Source of the DNA: Candidatus Latescibacterota bacterium
Lineage (GTDB): Bacteria > JAAXHH01 > JACQVL01
DNA length: 12,187 bases
Direction: 5' to 3'
NCBI GenBank assembly: GCA_016209865.1
Contig: JACQVL010000283.1
Location: forward strand, 1-12,187
Below, piece by piece: positions 2,335-11,050 of this stretch. The notes beneath the pieces were generated by a model. It searched no databases, was not told where the DNA came from, and saw only the letters and a list, made by a program, of their open reading frames with translations. The stretch's first letter is position 1. Each line of letters starts with the position of its first letter. The translations under genes were made by a program, and so were the position numbers.

Positions 2335-3459
2335 ATGCCTACACGATACCGCGCTGGCGTCATCGGCCGCACCGGCCGCGGCGACTACGGACATGGGCTC
2401 GACCGGGTCTACTTGGAGATGGACGAGATCGACCTCGTCGCGGTCGCAGACGACAACCCGACGGGCTTAGCGGAAGCAGGCAGACGGTTGGGGGTAGCCA
2501 GGCTCTACCTCGACTACCGTGAGATGTTGGCGAAGGAGCGGTTCGACATCGTGAGCGTGGCCCCGCGCTGGGTGGCCCCCCACCATGAGATGGTACTGGC
2601 CGTCGCGGAGGCCGGGGCGTGCGTGTTTCTCGAGAAGCCGATCGCCCGGACGCTGGCCGAAGCGGACGCGATGATCGTCGCCTGTGAACGGGCCGGGGTG
2701 ACGATGGGCATCGCCCACCAGGGCCGGATGCACGCGACCACACACTACGCGAAGCGTCTCTTGGCTGACGGCACGATCGGCACGATCCTCAGCGCCCAGA
2801 TGCGGGGGAAAGAGGATACGCGCGGCGGGGGCGAGGACCTGATGGTGCTCGGCACCCACATGTTCGATACCCTCCGGTTCTTGCTCGGCACGAACCCGCG
2901 CTGGGCCTTCGCTGCCGTGACCACCGCAGACGGACGCCTCGTCACCAAAGCCGACGCGGTGGACGGACCGGAGGAGATGGGATGGATCACAGGTGATCGT
3001 GTGCATGCCCTCTACGGCTTCGAAGATGGGACGACTGCGACGTTCGAGTCCCGGCGGAATCAGACCGACGCGGGCGGACGCTTCGGACTGCAGGTGTTCG
3101 GCACCCAGGGGATTCTGTCGGTCTACCAGAGCTCGCAGGAGATCCGCATCTACGGCGCGCCATTCTGGCGTCCGGATCGCACCGCGCCGGTGCAGAATGT
3201 GACCGCCGAGGCGCTCGCGGCCCTTCCGGCCGACCAGCAGCGGATGCACGCGAACGCGAGTTATACGGATGTCCAGATGATGGCTAACCGGACGATCGTC
3301 CGCGATATCCTGAGGGCGCGCGAAGAAGGCCGGCGGCCGCTCAACAGCGGTCACGATGGACGCTGGGCGCTGGAGATGATCCACGGCGTCTACGCATCCC
3401 ATCTACAAGCCTGCCGTATCGCGCTGCCGTTAGCTGATCGAGCACATCCGTTGGAATAG
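2335..3459 (+). CDS. Gfo/Idh/MocA family oxidoreductase (copy 1)
   Basis: This 374-residue protein is an NAD(P)-dependent sugar or polyol dehydrogenase-like enzyme. The N-terminal Rossmann fold opens with GVIGRTGRGDYGHGLD (8-23), a variant of the usual GxGxxG loop. FLEKPIART (98-106) contains the EKP motif with the expected catalytic Lys101. The C-terminal alpha/beta domain has EDLMVLGTHMFD (167-178), where His175 and Asp178 fit the conserved GxHxxD substrate site, followed by the dimerisation sheet strand LQVFGTQGILSVY. The sequence length is typical of the family. There is no Tat or Sec signal, so it is probably cytoplasmic, unlike the periplasmic glucose-fructose oxidoreductases. The ATG follows AAGGGGG (2322-2328) with a 6-base spacer, 51 bases after the enolase-like gene. 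The substrate cannot be read from sequence. It differs clearly from the other two Gfo/Idh/MocA proteins here, so they are not recent duplicates. Confidence 0.92.
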   Translation: MPTRYRAGVIGRTGRGDYGHGLDRVYLEMDEIDLVAVADDNPTGLAEAGRRLGVARLYLDYREMLAKERFDIVSVAPRWVAPHHEMVLAVAEAGACVFLEKPIARTLAEADAMIVACERAGVTMGIAHQGRMHATTHYAKRLLADGTIGTILSAQMRGKEDTRGGGEDLMVLGTHMFDTLRFLLGTNPRWAFAAVTTADGRLVTKADAVDGPEEMGWITGDRVHALYGFEDGTTATFESRRNQTDAGGRFGLQVFGTQGILSVYQSSQEIRIYGAPFWRPDRTAPVQNVTAEALAALPADQQRMHANASYTDVQMMANRTIVRDILRAREEGRRPLNSGHDGRWALEMIHGVYASHLQACRIALPLADRAHPLE

Positions 3460-3465
3460 CGGGTC

Positions 3466-3500
3466 GGGACTTGAAGCCTGGAACTTGAAACCTGGAACCA
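3466..3500 (+). repeat. Heptameric tandem array, consensus GRARCYT (five units)
   Basis: Five consecutive 7-base units occupy 3466-3472, 3473-3479, 3480-3486, 3487-3493 and 3494-3500. Examples are GGAACTT and GAAACCT, and odd and even units alternate, giving a secondary 14-base period. The array fills the 58-base gap between the TAG of Gfo/Idh/MocA 1 (3457-3459) and the ribosome binding site of the DMFase-like gene (GGAGGA, 3504-3509). Units are imperfect copies of one another. It belongs to the same class of period-7 arrays seen at three other gaps in this window, with a different unit sequence. Confidence 0.7.
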
Positions 3501-3503
3501 TTC

Positions 3504-3509
3504 GGAGGA
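3504..3509 (+). promoter_or_regulatory. Ribosome binding site deciding the DMFase-like start
   Basis: GGAGGA sits 8 bases before ATG 3518. It supports this start over the upstream in-frame TTG at 3485, which lies within the heptamer array. Confidence 0.75.
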
Positions 3510-3517
3510 ACCGAACC

Positions 3518-4879
3518 ATGCCCTTCATAGAAGGCTATCTCAACACCCTGAGCGCTGCTCCTGGTGAGACGGTGCAGCTTCATGCGTCGAGCAACTCGGA
3601 CCGGTGCACGGCGACGATCATCCGGGAAGGGTATCCGGAACGGGTCGTCCATATCGAGCAGAACATTCCGATCGAGGAACACCCGATCCCCGGCCAGTCG
3701 TGGCTCACCGGGCCGGGCTGGCCGGTCTGCTGGACGTTCACCGTCCCCCGTGACTGGACGAGCGGGGTGTACCGCATCGAACTGAGCGCCGAAGGGGTCA
3801 GGAATCAGCCGACGCACACCCACTGGGGCAGACGCCTGGCCTCGCAGAACCTGCTCTTGGTCGTTCGCGCGGCTCGCCCGGCGGAGCAGCACAACATCCT
3901 CCTGCAGCTCACGACCAACACGTCCATCGCCTACAACTCCTGGGGCGGACGAAGCCTGTACGCGTATAACTCGTTCGACAAAGTCCAATCCGCACGGGTC
4001 AGCCTGCTCCGGCCAGGACACGGGTATTACGACGGCTGCCCGTTTCCGGCATGGGAGCGTCCCTTCGTCCACTGGTGCGAGCGCGAAGGGTACGGACTGG
4101 ACTACGCCATCAACTACGACCTGGAGCGATGGCCGGACGGGTTCGATCAGTACCGGCTGATCCTGAGCGTGGGACATGACGAGTACTGGTCTGCTCCGAT
4201 GCGCGATCACCTGGAGCGGTTTATCGCCAACGGCGGGAATGCCGCCTTCTTCAGCGGGAACAGCGTCTGCTGGCAGGTGCGCTTCGAGGATGAGGGGAAG
4301 ACGATGGTCTCGTACAAGGAGCATTACAAACAAGACCCCAAGTACGCCTCGGGCGAGCACGCCCTGCTCTCGACGCTGTGGAGCCATCCGCTGGTCGGCC
4401 GTCCGGAAAACCGGCTCACCGGCGTCGGGTTTCCGATGGGAGGCTATCATCTCAGTCACGGTTCCTACATGGATGGGCTGGGGGAGTACACCGTCCGCCG
4501 GGCGGCCCACTGGGTGTTTGAAGGGACGTGCCTCACAGAGGGAGATGTCTTCGGGGGGAGGAACACCATCGTCGGCTATGAGACGGATGGCTGCGCGTAC
4601 GTCGAGCGCGATGGGTATCCCGTTCCTACCGGCACGGACGGGACGCCGGAGGGTTTCACCATCCTCGCTCAATGCCCCTCAGCCTGGGCTGGCCACGAGA
4701 TCGAAGCGGACGTCTTCAAGGAAGCGAGGGTCGCCAAACAGGGCATGGCGACGATGGGACTCTACACTCGCGGAGGGACGGTCTTTACCGCCGGCACGAC
4801 GGATTGGTCGCACGGCCTCAAGGACGATTCCGTCGTCCAGCAGATCACCCGGAATGTGTTGAATCGTTTGGGAACGTGA
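3518..4879 (+). CDS. N,N-dimethylformamidase large-subunit-like protein
   Basis: This 453-residue protein resembles the large subunit of N,N-dimethylformamidase, an iron amidohydrolase. Residues 1 to about 120 form a beta-rich domain beginning IEGYLNTLSAAPGETVQL. The rest matches the family's C-terminal domain: TSIAYNSWGGRSLY (135-148), SLLRPG (162-167), GLDYAINYDLERW (193-205), SVGHDEYWS (217-225), FFSGNSVCWQ (244-253) and TAGTTDWSHGL (424-434). The known enzyme binds iron through two Tyr and one Glu; Glu222 in HDEY and Tyr139 in AYN are the best candidates, and I could not place the second Tyr with confidence. No small subunit is encoded here and the protein is much shorter than the characterised large subunit (over 700 residues), so the substrate is unlikely to be dimethylformamide itself. 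I chose ATG 3518, with GGAGGA at 3504-3509 and an 8-base spacer. An in-frame TTG at 3485 lies inside the repeat array and has no binding site. Confidence 0.82.
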   Translation: MPFIEGYLNTLSAAPGETVQLHASSNSDRCTATIIREGYPERVVHIEQNIPIEEHPIPGQSWLTGPGWPVCWTFTVPRDWTSGVYRIELSAEGVRNQPTHTHWGRRLASQNLLLVVRAARPAEQHNILLQLTTNTSIAYNSWGGRSLYAYNSFDKVQSARVSLLRPGHGYYDGCPFPAWERPFVHWCEREGYGLDYAINYDLERWPDGFDQYRLILSVGHDEYWSAPMRDHLERFIANGGNAAFFSGNSVCWQVRFEDEGKTMVSYKEHYKQDPKYASGEHALLSTLWSHPLVGRPENRLTGVGFPMGGYHLSHGSYMDGLGEYTVRRAAHWVFEGTCLTEGDVFGGRNTIVGYETDGCAYVERDGYPVPTGTDGTPEGFTILAQCPSAWAGHEIEADVFKEARVAKQGMATMGLYTRGGTVFTAGTTDWSHGLKDDSVVQQITRNVLNRLGT

Positions 4880-4891
4880 ATTCATGGCACA

Positions 4892-4919
4892 GTAGGGGTA
4901 CGGCGCGCCGTGTCCCTAC
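4892..4919. repeat. Long perfect-stem palindrome, REP-like hairpin
   Basis: The 28 bases fold into a 12-bp stem with a CGCG tetraloop (4904-4907). Ten pairs are Watson-Crick and two are G-T. The outer arms are GTAGGG (4892-4897) and CCCTAC (4914-4919). It lies in the 72-base gap after the DMFase-like stop codon and directly before a heptamer array. No T-run follows, so it is not a classical intrinsic terminator. It could slow RNA decay, attenuate read-through or be a mobile palindromic repeat. From memory, palindromes with GTAGGG/CCCTAC arms recur in several GC-rich environmental genomes; that is not shown here. Confidence 0.7.
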
Positions 4920-4920
4920 A

Positions 4921-4941
4921 ACCGACCACCGACCACCGAAG
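4921..4941 (+). repeat. Heptameric array, unit ACCGACC (three units)
   Basis: Two identical units, ACCGACC at 4921-4927 and 4928-4934, are followed by a degenerate third, ACCGAAG at 4935-4941. The third unit runs into the ribosome binding site AAGAGGA (4939-4945) of the next gene. The unit is the reverse complement of the TCGGTGG family at 7181-7215, so the two loci carry the same repeat in opposite orientation. Confidence 0.6.
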
Positions 4942-4945
4942 AGGA
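4939..4945 (+). promoter_or_regulatory. Ribosome binding site overlapping the repeat array
   Basis: AAGAGGA lies 6 bases before ATG 4952 and 9 bases before ATG 4955. Its first three bases belong to the last degenerate heptamer unit. It supports an ATG start over the in-frame GTG at 4910, which is inside the hairpin. Confidence 0.65.
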
Positions 4946-4951
4946 TACCCT

Positions 4952-5977
4952 ATGATGAACGTCGCCGTGATCGGGCTGGGCGCAGGACGGGGCCACCTGC
5001 GCGGCTACAGCGAGAGCCAGGATGCGCGGGTTCTGGCGATCGCCGATATCGATGAACGACGCCTGGCGTCAAACGCCGAACAGTTTCATATCCCCCAGGT
5101 CTATAAGGACTACAAGGAGATGCTGAAGGTCCCGGAGATTGAGGCGGTCAGTGTCTGCCTGCCGAACGACCTCCATGCGTCCGTCTCGATCGACGTGCTG
5201 AACGCCGGGAAGCACGTCCTGGTCGAGAAACCGATGGCCCGGTCTGCTGCGGAAGCGGAGGCGATGGTCGCGGCCGCCGCCGTCAATCGCAAGACCGTCG
5301 CCGTCTCCATGAACTACCGCTGGGCGTTCGGGCTTGAGCCGCATTATCTCAAACATCTCATCACGCAGGGTACACTGGGGAGCATCTACTATGTCAAAAC
5401 AATCTCCCTCCGACGCTACACGTTTCCGCGCGGCTACACGACGTGGTTCAGCGTCAAGGCGCGATCAGGCGGCGGCGGGCTGATCGACATGGGGCCGCAC
5501 ATGCTCGACCTGGCGATGTGGCTGGCAGGCGACTTCTCTCCCATCCAGGTGAGCGGTGTCACGCGGACCGCCATCATGACCGATACAGACGTGGACGACC
5601 TGGCCTCCGGTCTGATCCGCATGAAGGGCGGGGCGACGATCCTGATGGAATCCACATGGGCGACGTTTACGCGCTCCGCCATGTCCGTGACCGTCTTTGG
5701 CACGCAGGGCGGGGCGATCCTCGACCTGAACGCCCCTCAGGGCCAGCGTCTGACGCTGTTTAGCGAGGATGGAAGCGCTCGATTCGAGACGACCCCGATG
5801 GATATCCGTCTCTCTGAGCAGCCCGATGCCAGTGTCCAGGAGCATTTCGTCAGGAGCATCCGCGCCGGCCGACAGCCGGAGAATGCGGGTGAATGCGGGC
5901 TGGCGGTGATGCGGGTGATCGATGCGATCTACCAGTCCAGCGCGACGGGACGGGATGTGGTGATTGAGGGAGAATAA
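4952..5977 (+). CDS. Gfo/Idh/MocA family oxidoreductase (copy 2)
   Basis: This 341-residue protein is a standard member of the family. It has a Rossmann fold starting MMNVAVIGLGAGRGH with a GxGxxxG-type loop (residues 8-14), an acidic strand end at Asp32 in IADID suggesting NAD(H) preference, and HVLVEKPMARS (88-98) with catalytic Lys93. Its C-terminal domain carries GGGGLIDMGPHMLD (173-186), giving Asp179, His183 and Asp186 at the expected substrate positions. Such proteins oxidise or reduce sugars, inositols or amino sugars; 3-keto-sugar formation is a common reaction. There is no signal peptide. Two adjacent ATGs (4952, 4955) could each serve. The upstream GTG at 4910 would add 14 residues translated from the palindrome and repeat array and is rejected. 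Only 6 bases separate its stop from the next gene, so those two are almost certainly co-expressed. Of the three copies this one is closest to a textbook active enzyme. Confidence 0.93.
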   Translation: MMNVAVIGLGAGRGHLRGYSESQDARVLAIADIDERRLASNAEQFHIPQVYKDYKEMLKVPEIEAVSVCLPNDLHASVSIDVLNAGKHVLVEKPMARSAAEAEAMVAAAAVNRKTVAVSMNYRWAFGLEPHYLKHLITQGTLGSIYYVKTISLRRYTFPRGYTTWFSVKARSGGGGLIDMGPHMLDLAMWLAGDFSPIQVSGVTRTAIMTDTDVDDLASGLIRMKGGATILMESTWATFTRSAMSVTVFGTQGGAILDLNAPQGQRLTLFSEDGSARFETTPMDIRLSEQPDASVQEHFVRSIRAGRQPENAGECGLAVMRVIDAIYQSSATGRDVVIEGE

Positions 5978-5983
5978 CCTATC

Positions 5984-7177
5984 ATGCTGAAAACAGGTCG
6001 TTCCGGCGGCATCTACATCCATCCGTGGGATATCACCGATGAGGGCATCGACACGTGCTTCGATGACCTGGAGCACGTGTGCGGACTGAATGAGCTGTTT
6101 ATCGCCGCGGCCTACCACGCCAGCACGTTCCTGCTGCCTCATAACCCGAAGCGACTGGTGCGCTGGGATGATGGATCGGTCTTCTTTCCTCCCCAGCACC
6201 CACGCTGGCAGGAGACCCGCATCCAGCCGGTCGTGGGGGAGTGCGTGGATACCGCCGGGTATCTCCATCGCATCGTGGAGAACGCCCGGAGACGCGACTG
6301 GGGAGTGATCTTCTTCACGGTGTTCCATTACAGTCACAGCACCGCGCGGGCGTTTCCAGCGGGATGCTGCGTGGACGCGATGGGCGAGCGTCACCGGGCG
6401 TACCTCTGTCCGGCTCACCCCGACGTGCGCGCGTACGACCTGGCCATCGTCGAAGAGTTGATGAGCACCTATGGCGGGGACGGCATCCGGTACGAGTCGC
6501 TCGGGTTCAACACCTGGAATTACGGGATCGTCGTGAACAAGATTGATGTGCCCCCACCCCCACGAGCTCAGTTCTTGCTGAGCCTCTGCTTCTGCGGCAA
6601 TTGCCTCCAGCGCGCCAGGGATGAGGGACACGATCCGCTCCCCCTGAGACGCGAGATCCGGGAGCATCTGTACGAGACCCTCGCCAGGCCGTCGTCCGAG
6701 TGGGACAGGGGTCCGGCAGACGAAGCCTGGGCGCGGACTGTGTTTGATGGAAAGCTCTGGCAATATCTGGAGATACGCTGTAACACCGTCACCAGTCTCT
6801 TCACTGCCGTTCAGGAGATCGTCAACCGCTACGGTGGAGCGTTCATGCCGTTTGGCGCGCGGCAGGACCGGAGCGTGATGGACGGCCTGGACTACGCCCC
6901 GTTCTATCCGCACCTCAAACGGGTGAGTCTGGGGAGTTCGGGCGCGACGCTCGACGAGCGACGAGACTCGCTCCGCCATCAAGTCCGGGCAGTCCCGGAG
7001 TGGACCGAGCCTGAGATCACGCACAACCAGCGGACGTTCCAGTCGATGGAGGCGCTGCGGGACGAGGTGATGGCCGCTCGGGAAGCGGGCATCCGGCATC
7101 ATGCGTTCCACTATTACGGGATGACCCCCCGGCATCAACTGGAGTGGATCGGCCAGACCCGCGCCGCGTGGGCGTGA
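5984..7177 (+). CDS. Conserved-looking TIM-barrel protein of unknown function with CFCxxC motif
   Basis: This 397-residue protein has the look of the glycoside-hydrolase-like TIM barrels often found in sugar-utilisation clusters of environmental bacteria, but I cannot assign a reaction. Visible features are HPWDITDEGID near the start, AAAYHASTFLLPHNPKR (41-57), GVIFFTVFHYSHS (107-119), YLCPAHPDVRAY (140-151), DGIRYESLGFN (166-176) where Glu171 could be a catalytic acid, LSLCFCGNC (199-207) with cysteines 202, 204 and 207, and HHAFHYYGM (372-380). The cysteine trio plus Cys141 might bind a metal. A proline run (PPPP, 190-193) breaks the chain before the Cys motif. It has no signal peptide, unlike secreted glycosidases. 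It starts 6 bases after Gfo/Idh/MocA 2, preceded by a GAGGGAGA stretch (5966-5973) overlapping the previous gene's end, suggesting coupled expression and a shared pathway. The gene is real; its function is unknown. Confidence 0.8.
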   Translation: MLKTGRSGGIYIHPWDITDEGIDTCFDDLEHVCGLNELFIAAAYHASTFLLPHNPKRLVRWDDGSVFFPPQHPRWQETRIQPVVGECVDTAGYLHRIVENARRRDWGVIFFTVFHYSHSTARAFPAGCCVDAMGERHRAYLCPAHPDVRAYDLAIVEELMSTYGGDGIRYESLGFNTWNYGIVVNKIDVPPPPRAQFLLSLCFCGNCLQRARDEGHDPLPLRREIREHLYETLARPSSEWDRGPADEAWARTVFDGKLWQYLEIRCNTVTSLFTAVQEIVNRYGGAFMPFGARQDRSVMDGLDYAPFYPHLKRVSLGSSGATLDERRDSLRHQVRAVPEWTEPEITHNQRTFQSMEALRDEVMAAREAGIRHHAFHYYGMTPRHQLEWIGQTRAAWA

Positions 7178-7180
7178 GGA

Positions 7181-7215
7181 TCGGTGGTCGGTGGTCAGTA
7201 GTCGGTGGTCGGTAA
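7181..7215 (+). repeat. Heptameric tandem array, consensus TCGGTGG (five units)
   Basis: Units lie at 7181-7187, 7188-7194, 7195-7201, 7202-7208 and 7209-7215. Units 1, 2 and 4 are exactly TCGGTGG, unit 3 is TCAGTAG and unit 5 is TCGGTAA. The array begins three bases after the preceding TGA (7175-7177) and ends nine bases before the next gene's ribosome binding site. It is the cleanest of the four period-7 arrays, and its unit is the reverse complement of the array at 4921-4941. Confidence 0.8.
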
Positions 7216-7223
7216 AAGGAAGC

Positions 7224-7230
7224 AGAGGAG
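7224..7230 (+). promoter_or_regulatory. Ribosome binding site deciding the start of Gfo/Idh/MocA copy 3
   Basis: AGAGGAG sits 7 bases before ATG 7238. It supports that start over the in-frame GTG at 7205, which lies inside the heptamer array. Confidence 0.75.
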
Positions 7231-7237
7231 TCTCATC

Positions 7238-8455
7238 ATGGGCATCACGGTCGGCATGGTCGGCGTTGGGGCGTTCGCGCAGAGCTTTATCCCTCTGTTC
7301 AAGGCGCATCCGCTCGTGGATGACGTCGTGCTCTGCGACCTCGATGCGAACAAACTCAGGCAGAATGCCGAGAAACACGGCATCCCCAGGACCTGTCCGT
7401 CGCTCGATGCGCTGTGCGACACGGACGTGGACGCGGCGGTCATCATCACCCAGAACTGGCTGCACGCGCCCCAGGCGATCCAGGCACTGCGGGCGGGGAA
7501 ACACGTCTACTCTGCCGTGCCGACGGGCATCACCGTCGAGGAGATCGCCGGGCTGGTGAAGACGGTCGAGGAGACGGGCAAGGTCTACATGCTCGGCGAG
7601 ACGAGCTACTACTACCCGGCCGTCCTCTACTGCCGGGCGCAGTACGCCAAGGGTGCGTTCGGACACGTCGTCTACGGGGAAGCGGAGTACTACCACGACT
7701 GGGACCACGGGCTGTACGACGTGATGAAATGGCGCGGAGGAGCGCGCTGGCGGGAGTTCGCCGGAGGCCCGCCGATGCACTACCCCACTCATTCCACCAG
7801 CCAGATCATCTCCGTGACGGGCGCGCACATGACTCATGTCTCGTGCCAGGGCTTTGTCGACCGGACGGACGACGGTCTCTACCGGGCGGACGCCAATCGA
7901 TGGCAGAACGTGTTCAGCAACGAGGCGGCGCTCTTCAGGATGTCGGATGGGAGTTGCTGTCGCATCAACGAATTCCGTCGGATCGGCCATCCGGGCACGG
8001 TGCGGATGTGTCTGTTCGGGACGGAGGGGAGTTTCGAGCACAACTCCGCCGGCTCGATCTGGGTCACCAAAGATAGGAGCCAGAGCCTTCGCTTAGATGC
8101 GCTCCTGGAGTGCAAGGGCATGCCGGTGAGGCGGACGGGTGAGAAGGCGGAGGGGATGGATCTCGTCACGGCGGAGGACGGGACGCACCGGGATGTGTCC
8201 CCGCTGCATCCGGTGGAGCGGCTGCCTAAGGAATTCATCGGCCTCCCGAACGGCCATGCCGGGGCGCACCAGTTCCTCGTCGACGATTTTGTCCAGGCGT
8301 GCGTCGACGGGAGTCTCCCTCCGAATCACGTGTGGATGGCCGCCCGGTATGCCGTACCGGGCATTCTCGCACACGAATCTGCCATGAACGGAGGACGCTT
8401 GATGGAAATTCCGGATTTCGGAGACCCGCCGGGGGTTATCGGGGTTCGGGATTAG
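7238..8455 (+). CDS. Divergent Gfo/Idh/MocA family protein lacking the EKP lysine (copy 3)
   Basis: This 405-residue protein has a clear Rossmann start, VGMVGVGAFAQSFIP (5-19), and an acidic pair at Asp34/Asp36 in LCDLD that favours NAD(H). Where the family has EKP, it reads KHVYSAVPTG (88-97): Ala93-Val94-Pro95, so the usual catalytic lysine is Val94. The following region is aromatic-rich (ETSYYYP, 121-127; EAEYYHDWDH, 148-157), and GGPPMHYPTHSTS (176-188) still supplies His185 where the family has its conserved His. It may use another base, or the Tyr cluster, for hydride transfer, or bind rather than oxidise substrate. It is longer than copies 1 and 2. I chose ATG 7238. The last residues, GVIGVRD, are partly translated from the heptamer array at 8440-8474, in which the TAG stop lies. 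Family membership is firm; activity is uncertain. Confidence 0.88.
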   Translation: MGITVGMVGVGAFAQSFIPLFKAHPLVDDVVLCDLDANKLRQNAEKHGIPRTCPSLDALCDTDVDAAVIITQNWLHAPQAIQALRAGKHVYSAVPTGITVEEIAGLVKTVEETGKVYMLGETSYYYPAVLYCRAQYAKGAFGHVVYGEAEYYHDWDHGLYDVMKWRGGARWREFAGGPPMHYPTHSTSQIISVTGAHMTHVSCQGFVDRTDDGLYRADANRWQNVFSNEAALFRMSDGSCCRINEFRRIGHPGTVRMCLFGTEGSFEHNSAGSIWVTKDRSQSLRLDALLECKGMPVRRTGEKAEGMDLVTAEDGTHRDVSPLHPVERLPKEFIGLPNGHAGAHQFLVDDFVQACVDGSLPPNHVWMAARYAVPGILAHESAMNGGRLMEIPDFGDPPGVIGVRD

Positions 8456-8474
8456 GGGTTCGGGGTTCGGGAAC
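8440..8474 (+). repeat. Heptameric tandem array, consensus CGGGGTT (five units), spanning a stop codon
   Basis: Units lie at 8440-8446, 8447-8453, 8454-8460, 8461-8467 and 8468-8474. Units 1 and 4 are CGGGGTT; the others are CGGGATT, AGGGGTT and CGGGAAC. The TAG stop of Gfo/Idh/MocA 3 (8453-8455) lies across units 2 and 3, so the array supplies both the last codons and the stop of that gene. The array ends 53 bases before the ribosome binding site of the following gene. Confidence 0.78.
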
Positions 8475-8526
8475 AGACAAGTGCTCGAGTTCAGACAGTC
8501 GTTCGTTCGCACGGCACCGATACACA

Positions 8527-8534
8527 GGGAGGAG
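8527..8534 (+). promoter_or_regulatory. Strong ribosome binding site of the CehA/McbA-like gene
   Basis: GGGAGGAG lies 5 bases before ATG 8540. It is one of the closest matches to the anti-Shine-Dalgarno sequence in the window and fixes the start of the long metallohydrolase gene. Confidence 0.75.
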
Positions 8535-8539
8535 TCGCC

Positions 8540-11050
8540 ATGCCAGACTATCAACCGATCGACCTCGCCGGCTTCTGCAGCGTGGGGAAGCTGTTCATCA
8601 GTCCCGGAGCTGACCCGCCGATCGGCAGTCAGACCTTCCACGGCCTGCCGTTCAAGGTCGGCGCCGACGATCCCGACCCGACGCGGTGTTTCATCGGCTT
8701 CGGCGGCGAAGCCGGACTGCAGGACGGGAGCGTGACCATCCCGATCAACGCAACCGCCCGGCGCATCCTCTTTGCCCATGCCTTGCTGGAGTCGCAGGTG
8801 ATGGAAGGGGAGAAGTTCGGCCGCGTCGTCGCGCAGTACGTGTTCCGCTTTACCGGCGGCGAGGCGGTGCGCGTCCCCATCCGCGAGCGGTTTGAGGTGG
8901 GTGCCGTGGCGCCCGCGCAAGGGGGCGGCGCGCCGTTTCTCGCCGTGCCCGACCAGAAAGAAAGCCTGATGCCGCGCTACCAGGGGGAGTGGAGTCTGAT
9001 GGGTCGCCGCCAGACGGAAGCCTCGCGCGGCGGCGCGCGCGGCTATTACCTGTGGGTCTGGGAGAACCCCCACCCCGACCGCATGATCGAATCGATCGTC
9101 CTGGAACCCGGCGGCAGAAAGTTCCTGATCGCCGCCATCACCCTCGCCCACGTGGACGAACCCCCCTTCTGCCGCACCGGGAAGCGCGAGGTGAAGATCA
9201 CCCTCCCGCAGGCCGAGGACGCCGAGAAGCCGTTCCAGGTCGAAGTCGACGTCGACCGGGGTGTGGCGACGTACCCGTTCCCGCTGCCCGACCAGCCCGC
9301 AGACGAATTTCTCAGCAACGACTTCAAAGGCTGGGGGGAGGAACAGAACCCCAAATCAAGCCCGGCCTACGTGGAGATCGCGGCCATTCCTTCCGCCACC
9401 GTCACCGTGAAGAACGACGGCGAGACATTAGGCCAGGCCAACTGGGGCGAACTCCAGGAGAAGGGACGGGTGGAGACGCCCCGCGTCAGGCTGGAAGTCG
9501 TCGACCGGGGGAGAAACTGGGTCCACGTCACCGTCCTCGACGACGAGACGGGCAAGCCGGTCCCGTGTCGCGTCCACTTCCGTTCGCCCGACGGCATCCC
9601 GTATCAACCGCACGGCTACCACCACCACGTCAACTCCAACCTCGGCACGTGGCACGTCGACATCGGCGGGGATTTGCGGCTGGGACAGGTCACGTACGCC
9701 TACATCGACGGCCAGTGTCAGGGCTGGCTGCCGCGCGGACGGGTGATCGTCGACGTCGGCCGCGGGTTTGAGTACGAGCCGTTGCGGACGACAGTGGAGA
9801 TCAAGCCTAGCCAGCGCGACCTCGTCCTGCGCCTCAAGCGGTGGACGAACATGAACGCCAGACGCTGGTTCAGCGGGGATTCGCACGTCCACTTCTTAGG
9901 CACGCAGGGGGCGCACCGCGAGGCGCAGGGGGAAGACCTCAACGTCGTCAACCTGCTCCAGTCGCAGTGGGGCCATCTGTTCACCAACAGCGAGGACTTC
10001 ATCGGCCGGCCGACCGTGACGCAGGACGGACAAACGATCGTCTACTGCTCGCAGGAGAACCGCCAGCATTTCCTCGGTCATTTGATTCTGTGGGGTCTCA
10101 AGGACGAGGTGATGCCCTGGTGCACAGACGGGACGGGCGAGGCGGAGTTAGGGGGGACGCTGGAAGAGGCGATGTCGTACTGGGCGGACAAGACCCACGC
10201 GCAGGGCGGCACGGTCGTCATCCCGCACCTGCCCAATCCCAACTGCGAACCCGCCGTCCTCATCGCAACCGGACGGGCGGACGCCGTCGAGATGCTCCGG
10301 CACGGGGCGTACAACCATTCGGAATACTACCGTTATCTGAACTGCGGCTACCGGCTGCCTTTAGTGGGCGGGACGGACAAGATGAGCAGCGACGTGCCGG
10401 TGGGCATCTACCGCACCTACGCCTATATCCCTGACGACGAGGAGTTCAACTACGACACCTGGTGTCAGGCGGTGCGCGCCGGCCGGACGTTCCTCAGTGG
10501 CGGCCCGCTCATCCATTTCACCGTCAACGGCGCTCACGTCGGGGACACATTACGACTGCCGGGGAACGGCGGCACGGTCGAGGTCGAAGCGACGGCGGAA
10601 TCGATCTTCCCGATTCACACCCTGGAGATCATCCAGCAGGGACGCGTCGTCGCGTCAACGGAAGAGACGAAGGGCGTCCGGCTGCTCCGTCTGAAAACCG
10701 CGCTGAAGGTGGAGGGGCACACCTGGCTGGCCGCACGCTGCGGCGGGCCGAACTACACCGCCATCCCCCATCACGACGGCTGGCGGCGTGGGCTGTTCGC
10801 GCACACCTCCCCCCTCTACATCGCCTGCGGCGGGGAGTGGTGTCTGTTCGATCAGGACGCCGCCCAGTACATGCTGACCTTAGTCGAAGGCGGTCTGGCC
10901 TACATCCGCCACACGGCGGCGCACTACCCGTCCGGCAGCGTGACGCACCATCATGGGGAGGACGACCATCTCGCGTACTTAGAACGCCCGTTCCTCGAAG
11001 CGCAGAAGGCCATCCATCAGCGGATGCACGAGCTGGGCATCGCACACTGA
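8540..11050 (+). CDS. CehA/McbA-family (PHP-like) metallohydrolase, multidomain
   Basis: This 836-residue protein has at least three parts. Residues 1 to about 215 look like a beta-sandwich of galactose-binding type (RILFAHALLESQV, VAQYVFRFTGGEAVRVPIRERFEV, YYLWVWENPHPDR). Residues about 315-425 carry an Ig/carboxypeptidase-regulatory-like stretch (VHVTVLDDETGKPVPCRVHF, 328-347). From 440 on is a PHP-like metal hydrolase: GDSHVHF (446-452) gives Asp447, His449 and His451; further likely ligands are Glu465, His514 (LGHLILWG), His563 (VVIPHLPNP) and Asp613 (GGTDKM). The named relatives CehA and McbA hydrolyse carbamate esters such as carbaryl, but most of the family has unknown substrates, so an ester, amide or carbamate of a sugar-like compound is only a guess. 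There is no signal peptide despite the binding-type domains. It is the last gene of the plus-strand cluster, 84 bases after Gfo/Idh/MocA 3, and ends 11 bases before a convergent stop codon. Confidence 0.85.
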   Translation: MPDYQPIDLAGFCSVGKLFISPGADPPIGSQTFHGLPFKVGADDPDPTRCFIGFGGEAGLQDGSVTIPINATARRILFAHALLESQVMEGEKFGRVVAQYVFRFTGGEAVRVPIRERFEVGAVAPAQGGGAPFLAVPDQKESLMPRYQGEWSLMGRRQTEASRGGARGYYLWVWENPHPDRMIESIVLEPGGRKFLIAAITLAHVDEPPFCRTGKREVKITLPQAEDAEKPFQVEVDVDRGVATYPFPLPDQPADEFLSNDFKGWGEEQNPKSSPAYVEIAAIPSATVTVKNDGETLGQANWGELQEKGRVETPRVRLEVVDRGRNWVHVTVLDDETGKPVPCRVHFRSPDGIPYQPHGYHHHVNSNLGTWHVDIGGDLRLGQVTYAYIDGQCQGWLPRGRVIVDVGRGFEYEPLRTTVEIKPSQRDLVLRLKRWTNMNARRWFSGDSHVHFLGTQGAHREAQGEDLNVVNLLQSQWGHLFTNSEDFIGRPTVTQDGQTIVYCSQENRQHFLGHLILWGLKDEVMPWCTDGTGEAELGGTLEEAMSYWADKTHAQGGTVVIPHLPNPNCEPAVLIATGRADAVEMLRHGAYNHSEYYRYLNCGYRLPLVGGTDKMSSDVPVGIYRTYAYIPDDEEFNYDTWCQAVRAGRTFLSGGPLIHFTVNGAHVGDTLRLPGNGGTVEVEATAESIFPIHTLEIIQQGRVVASTEETKGVRLLRLKTALKVEGHTWLAARCGGPNYTAIPHHDGWRRGLFAHTSPLYIACGGEWCLFDQDAAQYMLTLVEGGLAYIRHTAAHYPSGSVTHHHGEDDHLAYLERPFLEAQKAIHQRMHELGIAH

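Follow-up and report, generated by a model that had tools for sequence, protein, structure and literature searches.

The 12,187-nucleotide stretch analyzed here (the window; contig JACQVL010000283.1 of the Candidatus Latescibacterota bacterium assembly GCA_016209865.1) carries four tandem arrays of 7-base units at the edges of its genes, and arrays of the same kind recur throughout the genome in several unrelated unit families. They share one period, one size, and one orientation relative to genes, they occur as facing pairs and nested stacks, and in one case the complete arrangement is present as a pair of copies at two loci. Our best explanation, to which we give about an even chance of being correct, treats each array as an arm of a compact, dispersed inverted-repeat element. 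Such elements would be copied as whole units and persist between genes, where they are tolerated, and their architecture would be similar to that of miniature inverted-repeat transposable elements (MITEs) or to repetitive extragenic palindrome doublets forming hairpins (REPINs).

The genome (3.75 Mb in 356 contigs, 83% complete) was sampled with 80 stretches totaling 824 kb (61.6% GC), in which self-matches were scanned at lags of 2 to 21 bases. Period 7 yielded 146 arrays and each non-harmonic period 0 to 8, with 96 and 21 arrays at periods 14 and 21, which are harmonics of 7; a third-order Markov simulation produced no period-7 arrays. After 20 further stretches were added (1.12 Mb in total), there were 191 period-7 arrays and at most nine at every other period from 4 to 13. 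Some of the added stretches were picked from contigs with known TCGGTGG matches, which makes the 177 per Mb of the first set the fairer estimate of array density. Across the whole genome, TCGGTGGTCGGTGG had 230 matches at no more than one mismatch, and the reversed control had none. Gene edges are predictions of a codon-usage caller of our own, for which the window's eight long plus-strand genes (most of them confirmed by Pfam) served as the seed, and were not taken from a curated annotation. Array bases were ~22-fold denser outside genes in the 1.12-Mb sample. An initial annotation of the window had proposed that a genome-wide lack of a period-7 excess, or of a preference for intergenic positions, would reduce the arrays to a local coincidence; both the excess and the preference were found. 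Its observation of a common period without a common sequence also extends to the entire genome, where one set of rules applies to all families. Vertical inheritance of the trait within the order was rejected, as same-order relatives are array-poor (~13 arrays per Mb versus 170 in the window's genome) and have TCGGTGG counts at chance level; one of these relatives, G011, has 21 GATTTTR matches.

At least eight major families with unrelated units were distinguished, named in the orientation in which G exceeds C: AGTGACG (the largest, with 51 arrays), GATTTTG, TCGGTGG, CGGGGTT, GAAGGAC, TCAGGGG, GAGTGAA, and GCGGATT. The median length is 30 to 32.5 bp in every family, corresponding to four units and part of another. 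Overall, the median is 31 bp (∼4½ units), the histogram peaks at 30–33 bp, and 125 of the 191 arrays measure 30–34 bp, so that a preference for about four units, of the type described by Rehm et al., is also seen here. With length so tightly fixed in every family, the idea that the arrays serve as slippery phase-variable spacers is unsupported. The ends of the arrays are in fixed phase and interruptions are conserved within families, which identifies the arms as copies of a set sequence. Variation is mostly confined to the middle units and to a single tolerant position of each unit (e.g. AGTGAC[N] and GATTTT[R]), and the four bases that follow the end of the G-rich strand are 55–68% A, compared with 23% in intergenic DNA. 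Each unit family is present as many dispersed copies whose ends are fixed and whose interruptions are conserved. For this reason, the opposition drawn in the initial annotation between a common mechanism and a single dispersed element does not hold. In the arrays of this genome (L009–L108 and L225–L244), CpG sites on the G-rich strand appear as CA in 63 instances and as TG in 3, regardless of gene direction. This bias was considered as a general strand-specific mutation signature and rejected; it is strong here and absent from the arrays of other genomes, and therefore probably reflects founder variants or tolerated positions. A longer, 55-bp GGGAAAC/GGGAAAT array, beyond the usual 31 bp, adjoins a GTAGGGGCG palindrome at L020:598–652.

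The arrays had been described as standing before genes. As a rule this does not hold, since they occupy either edge of a gap with the G-rich strand pointing inward, mostly within ∼20 bp on either side of a stop codon or 8–24 bp upstream of a start codon. When the G-rich strand was chosen in advance to define orientation, 133 of 159 arrays pointed into the gap and 26 outward (p = 1.7e-18); when orientation was defined per family, 42 of 43 arrays in gaps of 80–150 bp pointed inward. The same orientation was still found for 8 of 10 arrays at divergent promoters. The stop codon lies inside the array in 34 of the 106 stop-side arrays, including the one at 8439–8474 of the window, whereas only 4 of the 86 start-side arrays contain the start codon, as one would expect if invading DNA were tolerated at the ends of genes. 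Arrays were also more frequent in co-directional than in divergent gaps (27% versus 13%, p = 0.027).

Scanning of every gap with the unit models gave 92 same-family convergent pairs, 18 different-family convergent pairs, 3 divergent pairs, and 29 tandem pairs. For close neighbors, with the G-rich-strand orientation set beforehand, the counts were 21 convergent, 0 divergent, and 4 tandem. Two arrays that face each other in one gap nearly always belong to one family, whereas the arrays flanking one gene belonged to different families in 12 of 14 cases, which indicates that the unit is the gap and not the gene. Same-family facing arms, equivalent to the terminal inverted repeats of MITEs, were present in 46 of the 83 array-bearing gaps of at least 80 bp, and many arrays that appear to be single face a decayed partner. 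In stacks of families, TCGGTGG lies outside AGTGACG in 11 of 13 cases. Three kinds of palindromes are also dispersed in the genome (ATTCCCGC..GCGGGAAT, GTAGGGG..CCCCTAC, and CACCCTGAG), and in nearly every gap that contains both palindromes and arms, the palindromes are located on the inner side of the arms (A> P <A or C> C> P <C <C). The ATTCCCGC..GCGGGAAT kind was found 41 times in 1.12 Mb and, together with the GTAGGGGTACGGCGCGCCGTGTCCCTAC kind, is dispersed between genes inside heptamer arms. Complete elements are predicted to form very stable RNA hairpins, with z scores of −8 to −11.

Two loci, L029:17696–17802 and L082:9336–9443, both consist of an arm, a 45-bp spacer (39 of 45 positions identical), and a second arm; the sequences beyond the arms differ, and the similarity does not extend past the arms' outer ends. 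A decayed spacer with an inner inverted period-6 array is common to AGTGACG elements at no fewer than four loci (L107, L097, L032, and L042). Inverted period-6 arrays (GAGGTT / AACCTC) nested in AGTGACG arms are located at L032:3460–3600, L107:9576–9713, and L097:1068–1216. In the proposed architecture, a complete element would start with an arm of 4½ heptamers, its G-rich strand directed inward, followed by a short A-rich linker, a spacer of ∼15–160 bp in which a palindrome or nested arms may lie, a T-rich linker, and a facing arm of the same family. We infer that the element spread as a unit, either by mobility or by a copying process acting on the hairpin. Its location between genes would result from intolerance of insertion elsewhere, and small gaps or decay would leave only one arm, as in the window. 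Any effects on genes, such as the supply of stop codons or the placing of RNA hairpins between the genes of operons, would probably be secondary.

Several observations weigh against the elements being spread as units. Most spacers are unrelated between copies even though the arms are ∼90% alike, unlike in a plain MITE. There is no clear target-site duplication (the mean shared flank is 3.5 bases, compared with 3.2 after permutation, p = 0.013, with no consistent length), and the two arms of one element resemble each other no more closely than arms of different elements of the same family do. In addition, the 83%-complete genome yielded neither a Y1/RAYT (REP-associated tyrosine transposase) gene (PF01797), in a search whose positive controls worked, nor a reverse transcriptase gene (PF00078). 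An origin through either enzyme was rejected on these grounds. Local inverted duplication, in which one arm makes the other, was also rejected, as the arms of a real pair match each other no better than shuffled partners do.

The over-representation of heptamer repeats in bacteria has been a puzzle since 2007, and polymerase slippage, quadruplexes, and regulator binding have been offered as explanations. The genome analyzed here separates them, as its GG-free and G-rich families are alike in size, placement, orientation, and pairing. Neutral slippage of DNA polymerase with a preferred 7-base step, retained where harmless, was proposed by Mrazek and colleagues, and in most of the surveyed bacterial genomes no other long repeat unit is as abundant as the heptamer (both as cited in PMC4692102 and PMC4679880). 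Period 7 is also prominent in this genome, and the intergenic enrichment is consistent with tolerance. However, slippage does not predict a few families that account for hundreds of repeats, a length fixed near 31 bp with fixed-phase ends, same-family partners that face each other, or identical units across unrelated phyla, and we consider it unlikely as the main cause; it may make or tune the number of units, yet it gives no facing same-family pairs. The arms could instead be a selected RNA signal; facing arms would fold polycistronic mRNA into long hairpins that protect, process, or attenuate transcripts between genes. The extremely stable folding of complete elements and the excess of arrays in co-directional gaps are in line with this explanation, but the absence of a detectable partner array from 37 of the 83 array-bearing gaps of at least 80 bp, the inward orientation at divergent promoters, and the lack of covariation between the arms of a pair make it unlikely. 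Selection at the RNA level was also sought through wobble asymmetry, and this RNA-strand-specific test was negative (41 G.U versus 35 A.C). RNA hairpins of complete elements are therefore physically plausible, but strand-specific selection on them was not detected.

Binding of a multi-contact protein that recognizes period-7 DNA or RNA, with five core motifs in 31 bp, would fit the fixed number of units, the single tolerant position in each unit, and the asymmetric substitutions (CG to CA over CG to TG); a related proposal, binding of a translational regulator such as S1, Csp, or Csr, was made by MacGregor for TAACTGA repeats (PMC4679880). This explanation is very unlikely, as eight or more unrelated unit sequences would require equally many proteins, the arms occur in both orientations relative to transcription, and the asymmetry is not shared by the arrays of other genomes. 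G-quadruplex formation, in which four G-tracts would account for the preference for four units (an explanation put forward for GGGNATC repeats in PMC4692102), is the least probable explanation and has only a slight chance of being correct. The G-rich strand points inward here as it does in that study, and CGGGGTT and TCAGGGG, the only families with a tract of at least three Gs in each unit (a Rehm-type criterion), could form quadruplexes. AGTGACG and GAGTGAA, however, which lack any GG, match the other families in length, placement, orientation, and facing pairs, so quadruplexes are refuted as the shared cause, although they could still apply to the two G-tract families, and the rule belongs to the element rather than to the quadruplex.

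Arrays of the same type are present in other genomes. TCRGTRG arrays were found in Cyanobacteria, Planctomycetes, Chloroflexi, Acidobacteria, Bacteroidetes, Verrucomicrobia, Firmicutes, and others, at loci that also hold further heptamer families (84 period-7 arrays versus no more than 13 at each of the other non-harmonic periods). Most facing pairs in these phyla have the G-rich strand inward (18:3), and array length has its mode at 31–33 bp, as in the window's genome, with a longer tail. GATTTTR arrays are patchily distributed (14 of the 288 searched genomes besides the window's own), and AGTGACR arrays were found in 4 of the 288. In G055, which belongs to another bacterial family, five of seven sampled GATTTTR loci are facing pairs with arms of ∼25–33 bp and a spacer of 13–21 bp; of the other two, one has a weak partner that was not flagged by the scan and one has two arrays that are far apart. 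Contig C1 of G259 (e.g. L296) carries many copies of the heptamer array GATTTTGGACTTTGGATTTTGGATT, in most of which the same unit bears a fixed interruption. A broader possibility, quite unlikely in our estimation, is that heptamer-armed inverted repeats constitute one class of mobile DNA that spread horizontally across phyla. Its mechanism would write a set number of heptamers and a few A residues onto both gap-facing 3′ ends, similar to end-healing at a break and layer upon layer, and the published 'simple' heptamer repeats would be its remains.

Among the closest known systems are the GGGAATC / GGGGA(C/T)T repeats of Xanthomonas and Nostoc. For GGGNATC heptamers, Rehm et al. (2015; PMC4692102) reported that four units are preferred, that orientation follows a rule, and that convergent pairs occur, without settling on a function. 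Those repeats are likewise intergenic with period 7, their G-rich strand is the coding strand near stops and the opposite strand upstream of starts, and they form close convergent pairs and are under-represented between divergent genes. In contrast to them, this genome contains many families, some of them GG-free, with a far more tightly fixed length, a nested family order, central palindromes, and at least one whole-element copy. The TAACTGA repeats of Beggiatoaceae (MacGregor 2015, PMC4679880) are also intergenic direct heptamer repeats (2–6 copies) with a patchy occurrence in distant phyla, but they form a single family, almost always direct and mainly located just before start codons, whereas several families, both gap edges, and facing pairs are involved here. 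Tandem heptamers, several families, many copies, and an intergenic location, as in heptameric short tandemly repeated repetitive (STRR) sequences, are present, and the STRR sequences of filamentous cyanobacteria such as Calothrix, as cited in PMC4692102, similarly comprise several tandem families per genome; the citation there includes no facing-pair architecture or gene-edge rule, and the host of the present arrays is not evidently cyanobacterial, as had been suggested from the window. MITEs and REPINs are similarly short, non-coding, intergenic, hairpin-forming inverted repeats in many copies, and the elements described here differ from them in their arms of tandem heptamers, mostly unconserved spacers, lack of a clear target duplication, and the RAYT gene that was not found. 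What is added to the known work is one set of rules for many families in one genome, GG-free families included, together with the central palindromes, the preferred stacking order, and the recurrence of the same units and arrangement in other phyla. The facing-pair and nested architecture and this recurrence turn the heptamer puzzle into a testable question about a mobile or copied inverted element.

In the window, Tandem Repeats Finder reported repeats at 3469–3498 (period 14, i.e. 2 × 7), 4921–4939, 7181–7213, and 8439–8471, and the flanking letters extend all four to the limits given in the initial annotation. Its placement of the arrays in gaps is generally correct, except that the CGGGGTT array overlaps the end of the upstream gene, encoding its final residues (...GVIGVRD*, stop codon 8453–8455). 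The seven plus-strand gaps measure 13, 51, 58, 72, 6, 60, and 84 bases and, as had been noted, four of them carry an array and only those of 13, 51, and 6 bases do not.

Features of the window discussed in the text (positions in nucleotides from its first letter)
Feature	Position	Strand	Remarks
GFO/IDH/MocA-type oxidoreductase gene	2335..3459	+	Gene edge
Period-7 array, CCTGGAA/CTTGAAA units	3466..3500	None assigned (G and C counts tie)	Minor family
Gene with DMFA2_C (N,N-dimethylformamidase beta-like) domain	3518..4879	+	
28-base palindrome GTAGGGGTACGGCGCGCCGTGTCCCTAC, 'Q' type	4892..4919		Inner side of array 4921..4941
TCGGTGG-family array	4921..4941	G-rich strand minus	10 bp upstream of gene start 4952
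GFO/IDH/MocA-type oxidoreductase gene	4952..5977	+	
TCGGTGG-family array	7181..7215	+	TCGGTGG TCGGTGG TCAGTAG TCGGTGG TCGGT, then AAAA
GFO/IDH/MocA-type oxidoreductase gene	7238..8455	+	Stop codon inside CGGGGTT array
CGGGGTT-family array TCGGGGTTCGGGATTAGGGGTTCGGGGTTCGGG	8439..8474	+	Contains stop codon of gene 7238..8455

The array at 3466 begins 7 bp past the stop of the preceding gene. The three arrays with an assigned orientation are all inward-pointing arms, at 4921 on the start side of the gap and at 7181 (3 bp past the stop at 7177) and 8439 on the stop side. The gap at 4880–4951 contains the GTAGGGG..CCCTAC palindrome, which has a 12-bp stem when folded, then the C-rich face of the TCGGTGG arm and the start codon, and fits the rule that palindromes lie inside arms. 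The suggestion that the arrays affect mRNA folding is relevant only where a facing partner is present; the window's single-arm gaps show no such stable folding (7178–7240 and 8440–8540 fold no better than shuffles). No Rfam match to a known structured RNA was found within the window, and neither intrinsic terminators nor sigma-70 promoters occurred at the arrays above chance in 3300–8700. The 836-amino-acid protein encoded at 8540–11050 had no Pfam match, and it adjoins a cluster of GFO/IDH/MocA oxidoreductase, UxuA/TIM-barrel, enolase-superfamily, and dimethylformamidase-like genes.

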